The translations under genes and the position numbers were made by a program. A DNA stretch of 64,000 nt from Pseudolabrys sp. Its GTDB lineage: Bacteria; Pseudomonadota; Alphaproteobacteria; Rhizobiales; Xanthobacteraceae. Location of the stretch: assembly GCA_030655215.1 (NCBI GenBank), contig JAURVZ010000018.1, positions 62,001 through 126,000 of the forward strand. Reading direction: 5' to 3'. Shown piece after piece: positions 10,961 to 61,566 of the stretch (the first letter of the stretch is position 1; each line of letters starts with the position of its first letter). The notes under the pieces are model-generated. The model had not been told where the DNA came from, made no database searches, and saw only the letters and a program-made list of their open reading frames with translations.

Positions 10961-11743
10961 TCATTGCGCGGTCCATCCGCCATCGATGGAATAGGACGAA
11001 CCGGTTATCGTTGCCGCTCCGTCGCTGCACAGGAATACCGCGAGCGCGCCAATACTCTCCGGCTTGGTAAATGAATGCATCGGCTGCTTCTCGGACAGCA
11101 ACGCGATTTCCGCATCGCGTGGCGACTGGCCGGAAGCCTGCGCCCGCGCATCGATCTGCTTCTGCACCAGCGGCGTCAGCACCCAGCCGGGGCAAATCGC
11201 GTTGCAGGTAATGCCGTCATTGGCGGCTTCGACCGCAACCACTTTGGTGATGCCGATGATGCCATGTTTGGCGGCGACATAAGCCACCTTCTGCGCGCTG
11301 GCGACCAAGCCATGCGCCGAAGCGATGTTGATGATGCGGCCCCATTTGCGCTTCTTCATGCCTGGGATCGCAGCATGAATGGTGTGAAACGCTGACGACA
11401 GATTGATGGCGATCACCGCATCCCACTTCTCTGTCGGGAAATCCTCGATGCTCGCGACATGCTGGATGCCGGCATTGTTGACGAGAATGTCGAGCGCGCC
11501 GAATTCCTTTTCCGTCGCCGCGATCATGGCCGCGATCTCGGCCGGCTTCGACATATCGGCCGGCGAATAGCGCGCCTTGATGCCGAATTCCTTCTCCAGC
11601 GCGGCGCGCTCTTTCTCGATCGCGTCCTTGTCGCCGAAGCCATTGAGCATGATATTGGCGCCATCGGCGGCCAGCGCCCGCGCGGTGGCGAGGCCGATAC
11701 CGGACGTGGAACCGGTGACCAGGGCGGTTTTGCCTTTGAGCAT
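10961..11743 (-). CDS. 3-hydroxybutyrate dehydrogenase
   Basis: This 260-aa short-chain dehydrogenase oxidises (R)-3-hydroxybutyrate to acetoacetate with NAD+, the exit step of PHB degradation. It has the TGSTSGIGLATARAL cofactor loop, NNAGIQHV, the Ser of NIASAHG and YVAAKHG (Y-x-x-x-K). The length and the C-terminus ITGSSYSIDGGWTAQ match bacterial BDH. ATG 11743 is preceded by GAGAGGA at good spacing; a longer frame upstream has no support. A TTGCAGTGCAA inverted repeat lies 56 bp upstream. Confidence 0.93.
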   Translation of the reverse strand: MLKGKTALVTGSTSGIGLATARALAADGANIMLNGFGDKDAIEKERAALEKEFGIKARYSPADMSKPAEIAAMIAATEKEFGALDILVNNAGIQHVASIEDFPTEKWDAVIAINLSSAFHTIHAAIPGMKKRKWGRIINIASAHGLVASAQKVAYVAAKHGIIGITKVVAVEAANDGITCNAICPGWVLTPLVQKQIDARAQASGQSPRDAEIALLSEKQPMHSFTKPESIGALAVFLCSDGAATITGSSYSIDGGWTAQ

Positions 11744-11798
11744 GGAAGTCCTCTCGTCGTGCGGGTGGGCGGCGTGCTGGAAACTGCCCCTGTTCTTG

Positions 11799-11809
11799 TT
11801 GCAGTGCAA
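11799..11809. promoter_or_regulatory. TGC-NNN-GCA inverted repeat upstream of 3-hydroxybutyrate dehydrogenase
   Basis: TTGCAGTGCAA is a 5-1-5 inverted repeat centred at 11804, 61 bp before the dehydrogenase start at 11743. The same architecture at nearly the same distance precedes the mutase, ccr and mcd genes in this window. It is a candidate operator for a shared regulator, perhaps of PhaR type. It also lies 70 bp upstream of the divergent zur gene. Confidence 0.6.
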
Positions 11810-11868
11810 TATATATGTACGATTCAGCAGCCAGCAGCTAAGACTTGAGTATCAGGACGGAGCCGACA

Positions 11869-12390
11869 TTGGTCAAAGCCACAGTCAAGAAATCTGAAGG
11901 CCGCGCGGTATTTCCGACGCCGGGGCACGACCATGACCGCTGCGCCAGCGACGCCATTGCCCATGCCGAGGCGACCTGCGCCGCGCACAAGGAAAAGCTG
12001 ACGCCGATCCGCCGCCGTGTGCTGGAGGCGCTGCTGGCCAACCACGCGCCGCTCGGCGCCTATGAGCTGATCGACCGGCTGGCCCAGGACGGCGAAAAGG
12101 AAGGCGCCCGCCCGGCGCCGATCACGATTTATCGCGCTCTGGATTTCCTGCGCGAGCAGGGTCTGGTGCATCGCATCGAGAGCCGCAATTCCTTCATCGC
12201 CTGTGCGCATAAGCATGAAAGCGACGACCCGGTCGTGTTTCTGATTTGCGAGAAGTGCGGCGCTGTTGGCGAGTCGGCCTCCGCCGCCGTTGCCGACACG
12301 ATCAAGAGCGCGTCGCGCGCCGCCGGCTTCACGCCGAAGACGCCGGTGATCGAGATCTCCGGTGTGTGCGTGAACTGCAAGGCGGCTTAA
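11869..12390 (+). CDS. zur: Fur-family regulator, Zur type
   Basis: This protein of about 173 aa belongs to the Fur family and most resembles zinc-sensing Zur. The winged helix covers about residues 40-115 (KLTPIRRRVLEALL, then PITIYRALDFLREQGLVHRI). The metal part has HKHESDD, CEKCG and the C-terminal CVNC pair, the structural zinc cysteines. TTG 11869 has GGACGGAG six bases upstream; the TTG at 11845 would add eight residues and has weaker SD support. It would repress zinc uptake genes when zinc is ample. No Zur box is obvious to me here. Confidence 0.85.
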   Translation: MVKATVKKSEGRAVFPTPGHDHDRCASDAIAHAEATCAAHKEKLTPIRRRVLEALLANHAPLGAYELIDRLAQDGEKEGARPAPITIYRALDFLREQGLVHRIESRNSFIACAHKHESDDPVVFLICEKCGAVGESASAAVADTIKSASRAAGFTPKTPVIEISGVCVNCKAA

Positions 12391-34997: not shown

Positions 34998-35297
34998 TTA
35001 CCGGCAGCGGCGCACGAAGCGGACGCGGCCGTCCCAACGCACAATGCGCTGGGTGTAACAACGCGGGCCGTAGGCATAGCTGCGGTAGTAGCCACGGCGC
35101 GGGCCGTAATAGCCGCGGCGGTGGCCGTAGTAGCCGCGGCGGTAGCCATAACCGCCACCATAGTAATATTGCGCCTGTTCAACCTGTCCCGGCGCAGCGG
35201 CAGCGCCAAGGCCCGGATTGGCCATGCTGGCCTGTGCGGGGGCCGAGAACGCGATCACTGTCGCGGCCACGGCTCCGAGAATAAATGTACGCATCAT
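34998..35297 (-). CDS. small secreted Tyr/Arg/Gly-rich protein
   Basis: This 99-aa protein starts at ATG 35297 with AGGAGG six bases upstream. The signal peptide covers about residues 1-23 (FILGAVAATVIAFSAPAQA). The mature part has a repeated YYG-RRG pattern (YRRGYYGHRRGYYGPRRGYY) and ends with WDGRVRFVRRC; the two cysteines could pair. Proteins of this kind are frequent in Bradyrhizobium relatives. The function is unknown. Confidence 0.75.
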   Translation of the reverse strand: MMRTFILGAVAATVIAFSAPAQASMANPGLGAAAAPGQVEQAQYYYGGGYGYRRGYYGHRRGYYGPRRGYYRSYAYGPRCYTQRIVRWDGRVRFVRRCR

Positions 35298-35410
35298 GTT
35301 ACGCCTCCTGTCCAAGGGTCAGGATAATAATTCTCAATTGCGGCATAAGTTTCAGCCGGTTGGCAAAATTTACAGATGCGCAGGCGATTTTTTGCGCTGC
35401 AAAATGGGCG

Positions 35411-50052: not shown

Positions 50053-52047
50053 TCAAACGTTGGTCAGGCCGTGCTTCTGTTCAACCATGCGCACCACGTC
50101 CGACATGATGCGGTTGAGTTCGAAATCCTTCGGAGTATAGACCGCAGCCACGCCCGACTTCTCCAATGCCAAAGCATCTTCGGGCGGGATGATGCCGCCG
50201 ACCACCAGCGGCATGGTCATGCCCGCCGCTTTCATGCGCGCGACGACATCGGCCACCAGCGGCAAGTGACTACCGGATAAAACGGACAGGCCGATGACAT
50301 GCGCGTTCTGTTCGCGCGCCGCATCGACGATTTCTTCCGGCGTCAGCCGAATGCCTTGATAAACAACCTGCATGCCGGCATCTCTCGCCCGCACTGCAAT
50401 CTGTTCGGCGCCGTTGGAATGACCATCAAGCCCTGGCTTGCCGACCAGGAAGGTCAGGCGGCGGCCCAGCTTGATCGAAACCCGGTCGACCTCGCCGCGA
50501 ATATCATCGAGCCCGTCGACATCGTTGCGCATGGCGTTGCCGACGCCGGTCGGCGCGCGGTATTCGCCAAAGGCCTCGCGCAAGGTCCAGCCCCATTCGC
50601 CGGTGGTGACGCCGGCTTTGGCGCAGGCAATCGATGGCGGCATGATATTCGCGCCTGTAGTCGCAGCGTGCTTTAGCTCAGCCAGCGCGCTGGCCACCGC
50701 GCGACTGTCACGCGCTTCGCGCCAAGCCGCCAACCGCTCAAGTTGATCGCGCTCGGCATCTTCCGACACCGTCATGATCGCATCAATGCCGCCGGTCAGC
50801 GGTGACGTTTCGGTCTCGAGATATTTATTGACGCCGACGACGATCTGATCGCCGCGCTCAATGCCTTCGAAGCGCGCGCTGTTGGATTCGACCAGCCGTT
50901 GCTTCATGTAGCCGGTCTCAACCGCGGCAATGGCGCCGCCCATCGCTTCGATATTGGCGAGTTCTTCTATCGCCTCGGCCTTCAGCGCATCGACCTTGCG
51001 CTTGATCTCTTCTGAGCCATCGAAGATGTCGCCGAATTCAAGAAGGTCGGTTTCAAAGGCCAGAATCTGCTGCATGCGCAGCGACCATTGCTGGTCCCAT
51101 GGCCGCGGCAGGCCGAGCGCCTCGTTCCAAGCCGGCAATTGCACGGCGCGCGCCCGCGCATTCTTCGACAAAGTCACCGCCAGCATCTCGATGAGAATGC
51201 GCGAGACGTTGTTCTCCGGCTGCGGCTCGGTGAGGCCAAGCGAATTCACCTGCACGCCGTAACGGAACAGCCGCTGCTTCGGATCGGTAATGCCGTAGCG
51301 CGTGCGCGTGATCTCGTCCCACAATTCGACAAAGGCGCGCATCTTGCAGATCTCGGTAATGAAGCGCATGCCGGCATTGACGAAGAACGAAATGCGGCCG
51401 ACCACTTCGCCGAACTTTTCCTGGCTGACTTCGCCTGAATTTTTCACCGTGTCGAGCACGGCGATGGCCGTCGCCAAAGCGTAAGCCAGTTCCTGCACCG
51501 GCGTCGCGCCGGCTTCCTGCAAATGATACGAGCAGATGTTCATCGGATTCCACTTCGGCAATTCCGTCGTGGTGAAGATCGCGATGTCCTTGATCAGCCG
51601 CATTGAGGGCGCCGGTGGAAACACATAGGTGCCGCGCGACAGATACTCTTTGATGATGTCGTTCTGGATCGTGCCGGTGAGCGCCGTGCGTGGCGCGCCC
51701 TGTTCATCGGCGACAGCAATATACAAAGCCATCAGCCACGCCGCGGTGGCGTTGATGGTCATCGATGTGTTCATGGTGCCGAGCGGGATCTGGTCGAACA
51801 GCGCGCGCATGTCGCCGAGATGGCTCACCGGCACGCCGACCTTGCCGACTTCGCCCTTGGCCAGAACGTGGTCCGAGTCGTAGCCGGTCTGCGTCGGCAG
51901 ATCGAAGGCGACCGACAGGCCGGTTTGCCCTTTGGACAGGTTGTTGCGGTACAGCGCGTTGGAATCGGCGGCGGTCGAGTGGCCCGCATAGGTGCGGAAA
52001 ATCCACGGCTTGTCGCGCTTGGTTTTGGCGGGCTGCGGCGTGTCCAT
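50053..52047 (-). CDS. meaA: ethylmalonyl-CoA mutase (MeaA-type, B12-dependent)
   Basis: This 664-aa adenosylcobalamin mutase of the methylmalonyl-CoA mutase family turns ethylmalonyl-CoA into methylsuccinyl-CoA. The barrel begins RTYAGHSTAADSNALYR and holds FDLPTQTGYDSDH. The B12 domain at the C-terminus has LDGHSNGAEQ with the cobalt ligand H543, then GLSVLSGSH and VVGGIIP. The length matches MeaA/Ecm rather than the longer McmA. ccr and mcd in the same window support the ethylmalonyl-CoA reading. A TTGTTGCAATGCAACAA operator-like repeat lies upstream. Confidence 0.93.
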   Translation of the reverse strand: MDTPQPAKTKRDKPWIFRTYAGHSTAADSNALYRNNLSKGQTGLSVAFDLPTQTGYDSDHVLAKGEVGKVGVPVSHLGDMRALFDQIPLGTMNTSMTINATAAWLMALYIAVADEQGAPRTALTGTIQNDIIKEYLSRGTYVFPPAPSMRLIKDIAIFTTTELPKWNPMNICSYHLQEAGATPVQELAYALATAIAVLDTVKNSGEVSQEKFGEVVGRISFFVNAGMRFITEICKMRAFVELWDEITRTRYGITDPKQRLFRYGVQVNSLGLTEPQPENNVSRILIEMLAVTLSKNARARAVQLPAWNEALGLPRPWDQQWSLRMQQILAFETDLLEFGDIFDGSEEIKRKVDALKAEAIEELANIEAMGGAIAAVETGYMKQRLVESNSARFEGIERGDQIVVGVNKYLETETSPLTGGIDAIMTVSEDAERDQLERLAAWREARDSRAVASALAELKHAATTGANIMPPSIACAKAGVTTGEWGWTLREAFGEYRAPTGVGNAMRNDVDGLDDIRGEVDRVSIKLGRRLTFLVGKPGLDGHSNGAEQIAVRARDAGMQVVYQGIRLTPEEIVDAAREQNAHVIGLSVLSGSHLPLVADVVARMKAAGMTMPLVVGGIIPPEDALALEKSGVAAVYTPKDFELNRIMSDVVRMVEQKHGLTNV

Positions 52048-52097
52048 CGGAATTGGTCGCCTGTTACATGTGCTGCATCGCCAGTGTGGACCGGCTT

Positions 52098-52114
52098 TTG
52101 TTGCAATGCAACAA
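52098..52114. promoter_or_regulatory. inverted repeat upstream of the ethylmalonyl-CoA mutase gene
   Basis: TTGTTGCAATGCAACAA is a perfect 8-1-8 inverted repeat centred at 52106, 59 bp before the mutase start. It is the most complete of four TGC-NNN-GCA sites in this window. It lies directly after the stop codon of the GT87 gene, which argues for a mutase-specific promoter here. Confidence 0.72.
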
Positions 52115-52115
52115 G

Positions 52116-53318
52116 TCAGGCAAGGCTGAGTGCCTGCGCTTTACTGGTTATCGCGCGCCGCGCGATCAGCCCGGCAACGATGATGATCGCCGCCAGCCCG
52201 ACCGGCGCGGTGACGAACGGGAAAATCAACACCAGCCCACAGGCGATGCCGATGCCCGTCATCTCATGCTCAAGAAAACCGTGCCGTTGGCCGAAGCGAA
52301 ACAGGAAGGCCAGTGGCACAGCCAGCACCACCAGGTCGTAAGTATAGAGATACGGCGTCGCCAGCAGCGCAGCAGCAGCCAGTGCCGCAGCCTTGAGTTC
52401 ATACGCCACGTTGCTCCGCCACAGCCAAGTGACTGCGGCGACAGCCACTACCACCACTGCGCCTTGAATGCTCCAGGCGGTGGCTTCGCTGAGGCCCATC
52501 GTGCGGGCAAGGCCAAACGACGTTTGCAGCTTGCCGAAGTCGGCCCAGCCGTCGGACAGAAAGGCCTGCGACGTGTGGCTGATATTGCCAATAAAGGCGT
52601 GCCAACTGTCGGTGCCGAAGGCCGCCCATGACGTCACCGCCATCACACCGGCCACAGCGCCGGCGGCAAGACAGGCGCGCCAATGGCCGCCGGCAATCAA
52701 CGCGATTGGAATGACGATGCCGAGATGCGGTTTGTAGGTGAGCAGGCCGAGACAGACGCCCGCCAAGACCGGCCGTCTGACCAGCAGGACGAGGGCGCCG
52801 CCGAGCAAGGCCGCACTAAGAAATCCATTCTGGCCGACGACGAAATTGCACAGCACCGCCGGAAACGCCGCTGCCAGCACATAGCCGGTGCGGTCCCCGA
52901 CAATGGCGCGAATGGCGGCCAGATAGGCCGGGAAGGTGCCGAAGGTCCACAGCACATAGGCCGCGGTGTAGGGCAGCAGCGCCAGGCCGGCAGCCGCGAA
53001 CAGGAATGTCGGTGGATAGTGCCAGCCGAAGTAGCCCTCGAACGGGCGGCCGAGCGCGACTTCTTCCATCGCCTTGTGCGTCGGCCAGTCATAGGCCGCG
53101 GCGGCATGGCCATCGAGCGCCAGCTTTCCAGCGGCCCAGACATTGACGAAATCGGTCGGAATGCCGCCGCCGTCCGGGCCGATCAGCCAGGCGCCGGTCC
53201 AATAACTGGCGGCCAGATAGACCGCATGCGCCATGACCAGCGCGACACAAATGAGTTCGACTGGCCGCGCCAGCCCAGCGCCCGCGCTTCGCACGGGAAA
53301 CATTTCAGAAGCCGACAT
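52116..53318 (-). CDS. GT87 (DUF2029) membrane glycosyltransferase
   Basis: This 400-aa inner-membrane protein has about ten helices and belongs to the GT87/DUF2029 family, which uses polyprenyl-phosphate sugars. The periplasmic loop motif DFVNVWAAGKLALDG with the following WHYPPTFLF is typical, and LLTYKPHLG lies further on. ATG 53318 is preferred to the GTG at 53330. The acceptor glycan is unknown. It separates mutase and ccr but does not fit their pathway. Confidence 0.88.
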   Translation of the reverse strand: MSASEMFPVRSAGAGLARPVELICVALVMAHAVYLAASYWTGAWLIGPDGGGIPTDFVNVWAAGKLALDGHAAAAYDWPTHKAMEEVALGRPFEGYFGWHYPPTFLFAAAGLALLPYTAAYVLWTFGTFPAYLAAIRAIVGDRTGYVLAAAFPAVLCNFVVGQNGFLSAALLGGALVLLVRRPVLAGVCLGLLTYKPHLGIVIPIALIAGGHWRACLAAGAVAGVMAVTSWAAFGTDSWHAFIGNISHTSQAFLSDGWADFGKLQTSFGLARTMGLSEATAWSIQGAVVVVAVAAVTWLWRSNVAYELKAAALAAAALLATPYLYTYDLVVLAVPLAFLFRFGQRHGFLEHEMTGIGIACGLVLIFPFVTAPVGLAAIIIVAGLIARRAITSKAQALSLA

Positions 53319-53411
53319 CGAAGCGCCCACTCGCCTTGAATGGTGCCATAGTAGGGGCGCGGCCTTGCCGAAATCTTAAGTTACAGGCTGCGGGATTGCG
53401 CGCGAAAGCTG

Positions 53412-53428
53412 ATATTGCGCTGCAATAT
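53412..53428. promoter_or_regulatory. inverted repeat upstream of ccr
   Basis: ATATTGC-GCT-GCAATAT is a perfect 7-3-7 inverted repeat centred at 53420, 62 bp before the ccr start. It fits the TTGC-NNN-GCAA pattern seen at the mutase and hydroxybutyrate dehydrogenase genes. Confidence 0.68.
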
Positions 53429-53481
53429 TAATTGCGTCACACTGCTGAAGTTCTTTGAGGCCTTGCAGGGAGAGAACGCGG

Positions 53482-54762
53482 ATGGCGGCCGTCTCAAAGC
53501 TGAGAAGTGTGGCTCCGGTGAAGGGCCTCTACGACATCGGCGAAATCCCGCCCCTCGGTCATGTCCCTGACAAGATGCATGCCTGGGTGATCCGTCAGGA
53601 CCGGCATGGCCCGCCGGAAACATCCATGCAGCTCGAAGTCGTGCCGACCTGGCCGATCGGCGAAGAGGACGTGCTCGTTCTCGTGATGGCGGCGGGTGTG
53701 AATTACAACGGCATCTGGGCCGGCCTTGGCCAGCCAATCACGCCGTTCAACGTGCACAAGCAACCGTTTCACATTGCCGGTTCGGATGCCTCGGGCATCG
53801 TCTGGGCAGTCGGCTCGAAGGTGAAGCGCTGGAAGGTCGGCGACGAAGTCATCGTCCATTGCAATCAGGATGATGGCGATGACGAAGATTGCAATGGCGG
53901 CGATCCGCTGCTGTCGCCGTCGCAGCGCATCTGGGGTTATGAGACGCCGGACGGTTCATTCGCGCAGTTCTGCCGGGTGCAGTCGCGGCAATTGATGCAG
54001 AAGCCGGCGCATCTCACCTGGGAAGAATCGGCCTGCTACACGCTGACGCTGGCGACCGCCTATCGCATGCTGTTCGGCCATGCGCCGCATACGCTCAAGC
54101 CCGGCGACAATGTGCTGGTGTGGGGTGCCTCCGGCGGCCTTGGCGTGTTCGGCCTGCAACTGGTTGCCGCGTCCGGCGCCAATGCCATTGCCGTCGTCTC
54201 CGACGAATCGAAGATGGAATACGTCTTCAATCTTGGCGCCAAGGGCGCGATCAACCGCAAGGAATTCAAGTGCTGGGGCCAGCTGCCGCAGGTGAACTCG
54301 CCGGAATACAATGAGTGGAGCAAGGAAGCCCGCCGCTTCGGCAAGGCGATCTGGGACATCACCGGCAAGCGCGATGTCGACATCGTGTTCGAGCATCCGG
54401 GCGAGGCGACGTTCCCGGTGTCATCGATGGTGGTGAAGCGCGGCGGCATGGTCGTGTTCTGCGCCGGCACGACGGGCTTCAACATCACCTTCGACGCGCG
54501 TTATGTCTGGATGCGGCAGAAGCGCATTCAGGGCTCGCACTTCGCGCATCTCAAGCAGGCGTCGGCGGCCAATCGCTTCGTGCTCGAACGCCGCATCGAT
54601 CCGTGCCTGTCGAAGACCTTTCCGTGGATGGAAATCCCGAAGTCGCACACGATGATGTGGAAGAACCAGCACCCACCCGGCAACATGGCTTGTCTCGTCA
54701 GTGCCCCACGGCCCGGTCTGCGGAGCCTAGATGATACGCTGGAAGCGGCTGGCGAAGGCTAG
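53482..54762 (+). CDS. ccr: crotonyl-CoA carboxylase/reductase
   Basis: This 426-aa medium-chain dehydrogenase family enzyme carboxylates crotonyl-CoA with NADPH to (2S)-ethylmalonyl-CoA, the key step of the ethylmalonyl-CoA pathway. ATG 53482 has GGGAGAG seven bases upstream. The NADPH loop reads WGASGGLGVFG at 214-224. AGVNYNGIWAGLGQPI, SDASGIVWAVG and the acidic insertion NQDDGDDEDCNGGDP at 128-142 are diagnostic for Ccr. The Glu of LTWEES and the His of GSHFAH lie where the CO2-binding residues should be. Confidence 0.95.
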   Translation: MAAVSKLRSVAPVKGLYDIGEIPPLGHVPDKMHAWVIRQDRHGPPETSMQLEVVPTWPIGEEDVLVLVMAAGVNYNGIWAGLGQPITPFNVHKQPFHIAGSDASGIVWAVGSKVKRWKVGDEVIVHCNQDDGDDEDCNGGDPLLSPSQRIWGYETPDGSFAQFCRVQSRQLMQKPAHLTWEESACYTLTLATAYRMLFGHAPHTLKPGDNVLVWGASGGLGVFGLQLVAASGANAIAVVSDESKMEYVFNLGAKGAINRKEFKCWGQLPQVNSPEYNEWSKEARRFGKAIWDITGKRDVDIVFEHPGEATFPVSSMVVKRGGMVVFCAGTTGFNITFDARYVWMRQKRIQGSHFAHLKQASAANRFVLERRIDPCLSKTFPWMEIPKSHTMMWKNQHPPGNMACLVSAPRPGLRSLDDTLEAAGEG

Positions 54763-57660: not shown

Positions 57661-59679
57661 TCACGCCGCCTGTACGTCGGTAAGGAACTGGCGCACTTCG
57701 GCTTCCAGCCCTTCCGCCTCGACGGCGACGGCATCGGCGAGATCCTTGACGTCGCCCGCGGTCGAGCGCGCTTCGGTGATCACGCCGGCGACACGGACCA
57801 TGGCCTCGGCGCCATTGCGGGCTTCGCCGGACGCGCGGTTGACGCCATCGGCGATGGAAGCCACGGCGGAGTTCTGTTGATCGACGGTGGCGGCGACGCC
57901 GGTGGCAATGGCCGCCATGTCGCGGATGATGACATTGACCTGCTCGATCGCCTGCGCGGCGTCGGCGGCGGCCGACTGGATCGAGCCGATCTGTCCGGCG
58001 ATTTCCTCGGTCGCCTTGGCGGTCTGGCCGGCGAGCGATTTCACTTCAGCGGCGACCACGGCAAAGCCGCGGCCGGATTCACCGGCACGCGCTGCCTCAA
58101 TCGTGGCGTTGAGCGCGAGCAGATTGGTCTGTCCGGCAATGGCCTGGATGAGGCCGACAACTTCGCCGATGCGGGTCGCGGCGCGGCCGAGTTCGTTCAT
58201 GGTGCCGACGGTGCGCTGCGCTTCCGACACGGCGCGTTCGGCGACATCGGTCGACTTCGACGCCTGCGAGGCGATCTCGCCGATCGAGGCGGCCAGTTCT
58301 TCGACCGAGCTTGCGGCGGCGGCGACGTTTTCGGACGCGGCAGTGACGCGCTTTTCCGCGGTGTGCGCCTCGGACGAGACGGTGTCGGCCGATGTCGTCA
58401 GGTCGCTCGAGCTGGTTTCCAGCTTGAGCGAAGCCGTGCGCAAGCGGCCGAGCGCGCCGCCGACCGACTGGTTGAAGTGGGCAATGGTGTTGGCGATGGT
58501 GTTGCTGCGGTCGATCTGCGCGGCGCTGACTTCGGTCTGCGTGCGCGCCATCTTCTCGCGCTCGATGATGCTGTCGCGGAAGACGATGACGGTACGCGCC
58601 ATCTCGCCGATCTCGTCGCGCGCGCGGGTGGCGGGAATGCGGGCCGACGTGTCGCCAGCGGCGAGCCGCTTCATGACATCGGCGAGGCCGGTCATGGGGC
58701 CGGTGATGCTGCGGCCGATCAACCAGCTGAAGGCGAGGCCGAGCGCGACCATGCCGATGCCAACCAGGATGATGCCGTTGCGCGTATAGCTTTGCGACAC
58801 GGTGAGCGCTTCGGTCGCCTTCTTGGCGGCAGCGTTCGCTGAGGTGATGATGGTGTCGGTGCGCGGCAACAGGTTCTGGCTGTCGACATCGATCACCGCG
58901 CGCAAGGTCTGTGTGCGGTTGGTGGCTTCGATCCAGCGCACGAAGACCAGCGAATAGGCTTTGACCTTCTGCTCCAGCGCACCCTTCATATCCGGCGTGC
59001 CGTCGACAAGATCAAATGACTCGTTGAACTGGTGGAAGGCGTTAAAGAACTGCTGCCGCGTGGCTTCGCTGCGGCCGAGACGATATTCGGCCTCGTGCTG
59101 GCGCATGACCAAGAGATACATCATCAGCTTGCGGGCGTCGGCTTCGGCGAGCCACGTCATGTTGCTGTTGATGGTACGCTCGATCTCGGCGCCGGCGTCA
59201 CGCAACTGCATGCGAATGCCGCGGCCGTCATTGAAGCCCACGTCCTGCTGCTCGGCGACCATGGCATCGAAGTTTCTCTTGATGTCCGTCAGTTGCGCGC
59301 GCAGGCCGGCGAGGTCTTCGCTGCGCATGCCGACGCTGGAGGACTCGATGACGCCGAGCCATTTGAAGGCCGCGGCCTCGGCATCGTTGTAGAGCATCAC
59401 GGTCTCAGGCTTAGGCGTGGTGGCGAAGTCCTTGGCCGACATCCGCATCTCGGCGATTGCGATCTTGAAGTCACGGCTGGCGTCGATCAGCGATTGCGAT
59501 GTCCGCACCGTCTCGAGCGCCTTGCCGACTTCGCCTTCGCCGACCGAGTAGGTCAGGCCATTGGCGGCGAAGCCGACGACCGGCACCAGCGCCAGCGCGA
59601 TCAGGCGGGTGCGCACGGAAAAGGAGCCCAGCAAGCGGCTTAGTTTGCTGGCCGATGTCGAAAATTCCTGGAAGCGCAT
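57661..59679 (-). CDS. methyl-accepting chemotaxis protein
   Basis: This 672-aa transmembrane chemoreceptor has helix one near residues 25-45 ([16 protein letters not shown]), a helical periplasmic sensor (about 46-290) with no recognised ligand motif, helix two ([20 protein letters not shown]), a HAMP domain and a cytoplasmic coiled coil. The hairpin tip reads [20 protein letters not shown], the CheA/CheW contact site. ATG 59679 is chosen; GTG 59700 would add seven residues and neither has a clear SD. Confidence 0.92.
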
Positions 59680-59827
59680 GGGCCCGTTTTTCAATGTCAC
59701 CCGCGGGTGAATTAGGCGAAATTCGCACGGAGGTAGAAAAGCGGTAAATGGTTAATTTTGTAGCAATTTGCCGGTTTTGGTGGCCATTTGCCGCTGCAGG
59801 CAGGCCGATTCGACCGGCTTTTCTTTT

Positions 59828-59838
59828 GTGCACTGCAC
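59828..59838. promoter_or_regulatory. inverted repeat upstream of mcd
   Basis: GTGCACTGCAC is a 5-1-5 inverted repeat centred at 59833, 57 bp before the mcd start. It keeps the TGC-NNN-GCA core of the other three sites but has G/C instead of T/A at the outer pair, so it is the weakest member. Confidence 0.5.
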
Positions 59839-59889
59839 CCGCATACTGCTCATCGCCGCCGGTGCCACCCGCCGTTTATCGAGGTCTTC

Positions 59890-61566
59890 ATGCCGATTGC
59901 CGCGTCCCGGTCTAGCAACGACAACGATCTCGTCGAGTTCAGCCAAGCGGCGTCCACGGCGCTCGGCGCGCTGTTGGCGGATGCGACCGTCAAGGTGCGC
60001 GAGCGCGTGGTCGTCGAGGGGCACGCCGTGGCCAGCCTGTACGACCGCGAACAGCGCGCCACGCACGGTCTGGCCTGGCTGGCGACCTATGCCGAGGCGG
60101 TGAAGCAGTTGGCCTCCTACGCCGCGCGCATGACCGCCAGCGGCCATTTCGGCGAGCTTGAGGAGCACCTGGTCCGCATCGGCCTTGGCGAACTGCTCAG
60201 CCAGGTCATTGGCGGCATCCCGATGAGCCAGGGCGAAATGGTGCGGCCGAGCGATCTAGGCCTGTCACCGTCGCAGGTTTCCGCGCGCATCATTCCGATG
60301 GTCGAAAGCTTGATTGTTACCGGCAACACGACGGAACGCCGCGCCCGTCTGGCGCAACTGATCAGCACGCACCACGGCGCGACAATCGGCACTGCCGGCC
60401 TCGATGAGACGCTGGAGTCGATCCGCGAGGAAATGCGCCGCTTCGCCGACAATGAAGTCATCGACAATGCGCAAGGCTGGCACCTCGCCAATAGCTACAT
60501 CCCGATGGAGATCATCGCGCAGATGTCGGAAATGGGCGTCTTCGGCCTGACCATTCCGGAAGACTTCGGCGGCATGGGGCTCGGCAAGGAGTCGATGTGC
60601 GTCGTCTCCGAGGAATTGTCGCGCGGCTACATCGGCGTCGGTTCGCTCGGCACGCGTTCGGAGATCGCCGCTGAACTCATTCTCGGTGGCGGCACCAATG
60701 AGCAGAAAGAAAAATGGCTGCCGAAGCTGGCGTCCGGCGATGTGCTGCCGACAGCCGTGTTCACTGAACCAAACACCGGCTCCGATCTCGCTTCGTTGAA
60801 GACGCGCGCGGTGCGTCACGGCGATGTCTACAAGGTTTACGGCAACAAGACCTGGATCACGCATCCTGTTCGCGCCGACCTGATGACGTTGCTGGTGCGA
60901 ACCAATCCGAAAGAGCCGGGCCATCGCGGTCTGTCGATGCTGCTGGCGGAAAAGCCGCGCGGCGACGACAAGAACCCGTTCCCGGTAAAAGGCATGACCG
61001 GCACCGAGATTGAAGTGCTCGGCTATCGCGGCATGAAGGAATACGAGATCGCCTTCGACGGCTTTGAGGTGAAGGCGGAGAATCTGCTCGGCGGTGTTGA
61101 AGGCCTCGGCTTCAAGCAATTGATGCAGACGTTTGAATCGGCCCGCATCCAAACTGCGGCCCGCGCCATTGGTGTTGCGCAGGCGGCGATGGAAACGGCG
61201 ATTTCCTACGCCAAGAGCCGCATCCAGTTCGGCCGGCCGATTGCCGAATTCCCGCGCGTCGCCGACAAGATCGTCATGATGGCGGTCGAGATCATGATAG
61301 CGCGCCAGCTCACTTATCATGCCGCGCGCGAGAAAGACTCCGGCCGCCGCTGCGATCTCGAAGCCGGCATGGCAAAATTGTTCGGCGCACGGGTTGCATG
61401 GGCCAATGCCGACAACGCGCTGCAAATTCACGGCGGCAACGGCTTCGCGCTTGAATTCCCGATCTCGCGCATTCTCTGCGACGCTCGCATTCTCAATATA
61501 TTCGAGGGCGCGGCCGAGATTCAGGCGCAGGTCATCGCTCGCCGCCTGCTCGACGGAACAAACTAG
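59890..61566 (+). CDS. mcd: (2S)-methylsuccinyl-CoA dehydrogenase
   Basis: This 558-aa acyl-CoA dehydrogenase has an N-terminal extension of about 160 residues before the ACAD core (AQMSEMGVFGLTIPEDFGG near 215). That extension and the length are typical of Mcd, which oxidises methylsuccinyl-CoA to mesaconyl-CoA in the ethylmalonyl-CoA pathway. The FAD motif reads FTEPNTGSDLASL and the catalytic Glu is E539 in NIFEGAAEIQ. ATG 59890 follows CGAGG; a longer frame to 59788 is less likely. ccr and mutase upstream support the assignment. Confidence 0.92.
   Translation: MPIAASRSSNDNDLVEFSQAASTALGALLADATVKVRERVVVEGHAVASLYDREQRATHGLAWLATYAEAVKQLASYAARMTASGHFGELEEHLVRIGLGELLSQVIGGIPMSQGEMVRPSDLGLSPSQVSARIIPMVESLIVTGNTTERRARLAQLISTHHGATIGTAGLDETLESIREEMRRFADNEVIDNAQGWHLANSYIPMEIIAQMSEMGVFGLTIPEDFGGMGLGKESMCVVSEELSRGYIGVGSLGTRSEIAAELILGGGTNEQKEKWLPKLASGDVLPTAVFTEPNTGSDLASLKTRAVRHGDVYKVYGNKTWITHPVRADLMTLLVRTNPKEPGHRGLSMLLAEKPRGDDKNPFPVKGMTGTEIEVLGYRGMKEYEIAFDGFEVKAENLLGGVEGLGFKQLMQTFESARIQTAARAIGVAQAAMETAISYAKSRIQFGRPIAEFPRVADKIVMMAVEIMIARQLTYHAAREKDSGRRCDLEAGMAKLFGARVAWANADNALQIHGGNGFALEFPISRILCDARILNIFEGAAEIQAQVIARRLLDGTN

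Follow-up and report, generated by a model that had tools for sequence, protein, structure and literature searches.

Candidate PhaR operators upstream of ethylmalonyl-CoA pathway genes in a Pseudolabrys genome and in other Alphaproteobacteria

Introduction

The closest described counterpart of the sites analysed here is the operator of S. meliloti PhaR (AniA), published as WNWDDNYGCRNYGCRNHHWNW, a YGCRNYGCR palindrome with AT-rich arms; that study resembles our findings also in its phasin promoters with two sites, its depolymerase targets and the weak sites at phaR itself (PMC12542648). The targets given in its Table 3 comprise phasins, depolymerases, EPS genes, ppdK, gltA, zwf and others; none of ccr, ecm, mcd and bdhA appears by name in the table, many rows of which are bare locus tags, and the terms 'ethylmalonyl-CoA', 'ccrA' and 'bdhA' are absent from the main text (PMC12542648). 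In B. diazoefficiens the PhaR consensus TGCRNYGCASMA was derived from footprints and a promoter alignment (PMC6201568); its footprint core is TGCRNYGCA, two phaP1 sites flank the -35 and PHB hinders DNA binding (PMC6201568, PMC10888616), nearly abolishing it in vitro (PMC6201568). The consensus has the same core as our sites, whereas the main text of PMC10888616 uses neither 'ethylmalonyl' nor 'crotonyl'. A further likeness is offered by Paracoccus denitrificans RamB, which also connects acetyl-CoA assimilation routes; this regulator, however, acts on the glyoxylate cycle through a double box with an 18-bp spacer and binds CoA-thioester intermediates, not PHB (PMC10370305). Within the accessible portions of the open-access literature we found neither a report that makes ccr, ecm or mcd a PhaR target nor one assigning a regulator to the dedicated ethylmalonyl-CoA enzymes across Alphaproteobacteria. 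The candidate PhaR sites described below are of a known kind, and their target set, ccr, ecm and mcd, seems to be new and widespread.

Results

Source genome and genes

The window, i.e. the whole 64,000-nt stretch of Pseudolabrys sp. DNA that was analysed, is part of a 3.64-Mb genome of 93 contigs that is 80% complete, and the closest ccr relatives with a name are MAGs under the labels Rhizobium sp. Q54, uncultured Rhizobiales and Pseudolabrys. Profile and PDB matches (Table 1) agree with the identities that an earlier note on this DNA had given to four genes, namely a mutase, ccr, mcd and 3-hydroxybutyrate dehydrogenase. The specificity of the mutase for ethylmalonyl-CoA is inferred by context; it scores 540.2 against the NCBIfam methylmalonyl-CoA mutase equivalog, far under the cut-off of 876, and ecm matches adjoin ccr in 62 of the 80 relatives' loci. 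The best PDB match of Mcd is 6es9 (residues 16-555, 728.5 bits; entry name acyl-CoA dehydrogenase), the third being 8ciw, an entry named (2S)-methylsuccinyl-CoA dehydrogenase.

Table 1. Candidate PhaR operators and neighbouring genes in the window
Feature	Position	Strand	Evidence or remark
Candidate PhaR operator TTTTGTTGCAATGCAACAAGT before ecm (52098-52114 in the earlier note)	52096..52116	.	25.3 bits, best of the window
Candidate PhaR operator TGATATTGCGCTGCAATATTA before ccr	53410..53430	.	18.2 bits
Candidate PhaR operator CTTTTGTGCACTGCACCCGCA before mcd, in the gap common with the divergent MCP gene	59823..59843	.	16.7 bits
Candidate PhaR operator TCTTGTTGCAGTGCAATATAT between bdhA and the divergent FUR-family gene	11794..11814	.	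22.9 bits
Fifth PhaR-like site ATTTTTTGCGCTGCAAAATGG	35387..35407	.	20.3 bits
Weaker companion site TAATTCTCAATTGCGGCATAA, 59 bp from the fifth site	35328..35348	.	13.4 bits
bdhA, 3-hydroxybutyrate dehydrogenase	10961..11743	-	TIGR01963 and NF009093 above cut-off
FUR-family regulator gene, divergent from bdhA across the PhaR-like site	11869..12390		TTG start
ecm, B12-dependent acyl-CoA mutase, ethylmalonyl-CoA mutase by context	50053..52047	-	PF01642 and PF02310
GT87 glycosyltransferase gene, between ecm and ccr	52116..53330	-	PF09594
ccr, crotonyl-CoA carboxylase/reductase	53482..54762	+	TIGR01751 equivalog, 609.6 bits against a cut-off of 378.55
MCP chemotaxis receptor gene, divergent from mcd	57661..59700	-	PF00015 and PF00672
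mcd, (2S)-methylsuccinyl-CoA dehydrogenase	59890..61566	+	PDB 6es9 and 8ciw matches

Two features of gene order deserve mention. In the window ecm and ccr are split by the GT87 gene, which takes this position in 5/80 ccr loci, and each of them has its own site at its promoter. On the other hand, the divergent MCP gene and mcd (57661-59890, from the MCP gene to the mcd start) have a common operator region, and the MCP gene could share the operator; MCP matches occur in 18 of the 80 relatives' loci, 14 of them adjoining mcd (coordinates read by eye), and two MCPs are strongly activated by PhaR in S. meliloti (PMC12542648).

PhaR-like sites in the window

A symmetric weight matrix was built from 16 S. 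meliloti PhaR sites in promoters marked 'Efficient' in EMSA (Table 3, PMC12542648), leaving out acyP, which repeats the rpoE8 site, and four exoH sequences, 'efficient' too, of which it is unclear which one binds; the latter score -0.5, 9.9, 21.8 and 13.0 bits under this matrix. Only five window positions reach at least 16 bits, with centres at 52106, 11804, 35397, 53420 and 59833 in descending order of score (Table 1), the runner-up having 13.6 bits. One hundred Markov-1 windows contained a mean of 0.32 such positions (maximum 2; top random score 20.9), and a control matrix (complement, not reversed) found none in the real window.

The four inverted repeats reported earlier before ecm, ccr, mcd and bdhA were all found where the earlier note had placed them, and its centre-to-start distances were borne out: 59 bp for ecm (52106 to 52047), 62 bp for ccr (53420 to the ATG at 53482), 57 bp for mcd (59833 to the ATG at 59890) and 61 bp for bdhA (11804 to the ATG at 11743). 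That set was incomplete, the fifth site at 35397 having been overlooked, and the accompanying remark that no such site was noticed before fadD, the thiolase or putA is consistent with the scan, in which no further position attains 14 bits. The fifth site lies about 100 bp upstream of a small minus-strand reading frame (34998-35297) for a signal-peptide-like, Gly/Tyr/Arg-rich protein without a Pfam match, which the weaker companion site precedes as well.

All four repeats contain TGCRNYGCA and score 16.7-25.3 bits with the S. meliloti matrix, the mcd site having a GC-rich right arm. The TGC-NNN-GCA motif first proposed for them, TTGCNNNGCAA, described real repeats in too loose a form, the core being TGCRNYGCA with AT-rich arms. 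Taken literally, TTGCNNNGCAA misses the mcd site and occurs 7 times in the window against 2.31 expected (7 being reached in 1/100 shuffles) and 122 times in the genome against 60 for the reversed control; because of this looseness it was dropped as a site definition. The tighter pattern TTGCANTGCAA has 8 genomic matches against 1 in the control, and TNNTGCRNYGCANNA, which also misses the mcd site, has 42 against 7 in controls, some of the 42 falling within genes.

PhaR and its candidate targets in the genome

The genome encodes PhaR on C9 (PF07879, E 1.3e-29), and phaR is divergent from a thiolase-like gene (by reading) across a gap with one weak site of 12.4 bits. The earlier note had suggested a check for the motif at phaP, phaR and pcc genes among others; it is present at two phasin promoters, both with tandem sites (24.8 and 21.8 bits in L018, 22.5 and 22.3 bits in L109), and weakly in the phaR gap, and at pccB the site is not conserved. 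A PHB-depolymerase-family reading frame (L117) has a 17.8-bit site just inside the start of its longest frame. Of the eight TTGCANTGCAA places, seven lie before a gene or reading frame: a phasin gene, bdhA and ecm are three of these, and the others are an mdoG-like gene, the gene of an NMT1-type transporter protein, a 66-residue frame and a short one close to an S49 peptidase-like gene. The eighth is inside a maleylacetoacetate isomerase-like gene (several of these names being assigned by reading). Sites of 27.4 bits, the highest seen in the genome, and 17.9 bits precede the 66-residue frame of unassigned function (L014:1373-1516 and 1563-1760); several small genes of unassigned function are repressed by PhaR in B. 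diazoefficiens (PMC6201568).

A pccB-like carboxyltransferase gene is preceded, at 53 bp, by a PhaR-like site of 14.8 bits (L271:1014-1077). As a further target pccB was rejected: in a set of 27 scored promoters (a 28th locus, truncated and from the genome of L026, was left out) only those of the Pseudolabrys genome and L022 have at least 14 bits, the next best reaching 11.2 bits (L029).

Conservation at orthologous promoters

Among 80 named-relative ccr loci (L059, with its match at the locus edge and no usable promoter, was disregarded), the promoters with enough upstream DNA and at least 60% identity numbered 74 for ccr, 61 for ecm and 36 for mcd. Sites of at least 14 bits within 200 bp upstream were present at ecm in 12/12 orthologues of at least 80% identity, 15/36 of 70-80% and 6/13 of 60-70%; at mcd in 7/8, 13/15 and 7/13 of the same classes; and at ccr in 26/37 of at least 80% and 14/37 of 70-80%, so that site frequency mostly drops with ortholog distance. 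At this threshold the background was 1.7% of 5929 tiles, true sites among them, and 0.2% of 855 shuffles, and the control matrix had no match in 74 ccr, 61 ecm or 36 mcd promoters. For bdhA, a site of 20.9-27.2 bits is present in all ten relatives with 77% identity or above; of 17 more distant matches, one of which is a second copy, four reach 14 bits. Alignment of eight chosen ccr promoters revealed the site as an island of conservation, as did that of 11 chosen mcd promoters, in which TTTGTGCNCTGCAC is invariant except for one base. The sites first noticed in a single genome are therefore kept across relatives at ecm, ccr, mcd and bdhA.

In many relatives the conserved mcd block reads, by eye, TTGCTT, the PhaR palindrome and TAGTGT, plausibly a -35 and a -10 whose 16-bp spacer is taken up by the operator; the ccr operator overlaps an apparent -35, again by eye. 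A sigma-70 promoter scan gave no match at ecm, ccr or mcd in the window and one weak match at bdhA, and the geometry suggestive of repression is thus one judged by eye.

Breadth across the class and co-occurrence with phaR

A sample of 240 genomes from across the class contained 66 with ccr (E 1e-150 or better), and 48 of these, representing 33 of 43 families, have a site of at least 14 bits within 250 bp (control matrix 0/66; 1.5% of 1980 shuffles); lowering the threshold to 12 bits gives 51/66 (control matrix 2/66; shuffles 4.4%). The 14-bit sites are 19-229 bp from the start (median 106), and 18/66 genomes are without one. A single Bradyrhizobium ccr locus is in the named set (L100), and it has no site.

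PhaR is encoded in 60 of the 66 ccr genomes, and the ccr site is found in 46/60 genomes with PhaR against 2/6 without it, a difference with a Fisher p of 0.043 at 14 bits and 0.021 at 12 bits that depends on six negatives only; both site-bearing genomes without PhaR are incomplete (68% and 80%). In the named ccr genomes PhaR was detected in 47 of the 49 searched among the 80 named loci, L025 and L033 having no match yet having sites, and its presence therefore hardly discriminates there. Raw TTGCANTGCAA counts in the 240 class genomes showed no clear split by PhaR, in a comparison that was not formally tallied and in which counts are small and the reversed control is biased; three genomes without PhaR (G050, G083, G104) yet have 8-9 matches against 0-2 in controls.

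Methylotroph-named genomes

Serine-cycle methylotrophs need the ethylmalonyl-CoA pathway for one-carbon growth. A set of 22 loci from 21 genomes was picked by name (Methylobacterium, Methylorubrum, Methylocystis, Methylosinus, Methylocystaceae), in which a ccr/ecm/mcd site occurs in 4/20 loci with a usable promoter against 46/58 of the others (p 4e-6); kinship is uncorrected in this contrast, which may therefore reflect few events. The four exceptions with a site, M. crusticola, tarhaniae, frigidaeris and indicum, may belong to a single clade, and mcd orthologues outside the methylotroph-named set have at least 14 bits in 27/34 cases. Phasins were present in 21/21 methylotroph-named genomes, all with at least one phasin gene preceded by a site of at least 14 bits, 18 genomes being scored so in a first scan (site within 450 bp upstream in 22/30 loci, absent in 8) and three more on the basis of where the site lies with respect to the phasin domain; the distances in the first scan are approximate because start codons were picked by a crude rule. 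Hence PhaR probably reads the same DNA in these organisms. In the M. extorquens phaR-mutant transcriptome both phasins are up and ccr goes unmentioned in the main text (PMC6520949), a silence that is consistent with the missing site there and proves nothing.

Discussion

In our judgement the four repeats, together with the fifth site, are probably bound by the PHB-binding transcription factor PhaR (AniA) as its operators, from which it would repress until PHB titrates it away. The earlier proposal of one regulator linking PHB turnover with the ethylmalonyl-CoA pathway is the reading best supported, by the PhaR motif, the phaR gene, the phasin sites and the conservation at orthologous promoters. 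It would apply to ecm, ccr and mcd but not to the pathway as a whole, since pccB has a site of at least 14 bits only here and in one relative.

According to this reading, PhaR would bind and repress these promoters when there is little PHB, sitting between the apparent -35 and -10 at mcd and over the apparent -35 at ccr, and the granules formed as PHB accumulates would titrate it away from the DNA. Ccr, Ecm and Mcd, the enzymes dedicated to the ethylmalonyl-CoA pathway, would then come on together with phasins and bdhA, the granule reporting a C2/C4 surplus and opening the assimilation route that leaves the crotonyl/3-hydroxybutyryl-CoA node. The promoter geometry and the published titration model together predict such a repression relieved by PHB; this direction is deduced from sequence, and activation is a live rival.

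That PhaR binds these sites but activates the ethylmalonyl-CoA genes appears unlikely, although the protein can activate too, as the title of one study indicates (PMC12849132), box-bearing genes under PhaR activation have been described in B. diazoefficiens (PMC6201568, PMC10888616), and the varying position of the ccr site across the class leaves room for it. Against activation, the motif in S. meliloti occurs mainly with repressed genes (module 1), only seven activated genes having it (PMC12542648), and the conserved blocks at mcd and ccr merge the site with apparent promoter elements, as judged by eye. We would give far less credit to the idea that another C2 regulator, either of the ScfR family (RamB/PccR) or a CcrR-type TetR protein, owns the sites. 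CcrR acts on ccr in Methylobacterium, which counts for the latter type. ScfR regulators act on glyoxylate cycle and propionyl-CoA genes in related bacteria, but class 2 RamB sites consist of two near-identical boxes 18 bp apart (PMC10370305) whereas each window site reads as one palindrome with a 3-bp centre. Before ccr, the next match to the PhaR matrix scores 2.5 bits, and the same motif at phasins, both here and in the 21 methylotroph-named genomes, fits PhaR.

As for chance palindromes in AT-rich promoter DNA, they might be invoked from the frequency of TTGCNNNGCAA in its control and from the shuffled and control-matrix matches at ccr at 12 bits, but at 14 bits the control matrix found nothing in the 66 class-wide ccr promoters or in the 74 ccr, 61 ecm and 36 mcd orthologous ones, the islands of conservation are centred on the sites, and the conservation seen at orthologous promoters already tells against chance, which makes this explanation negligible.

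Returning to PhaR as the repressor, it is tempting to speculate, with rather less assurance than we have in the operators themselves and slightly against the balance of probability, that PHB-granule control of the ethylmalonyl-CoA pathway is an old, class-wide alphaproteobacterial circuit in which the polymer itself serves as the cue for opening C2 assimilation, and that it was lost at pathway genes and retained at phasins in lineages constantly needing the pathway for one-carbon growth. If true, phasins of methylotrophs should respond to phaR and ccr should not do so directly. If PhaR regulates these genes, the storage granule would be a switch at the crotonyl/3-hydroxybutyryl-CoA node, and phaR deletion or the removal of a single operator could be a simple means of redirecting carbon from bioplastic to dicarboxylic-acid products or the reverse.
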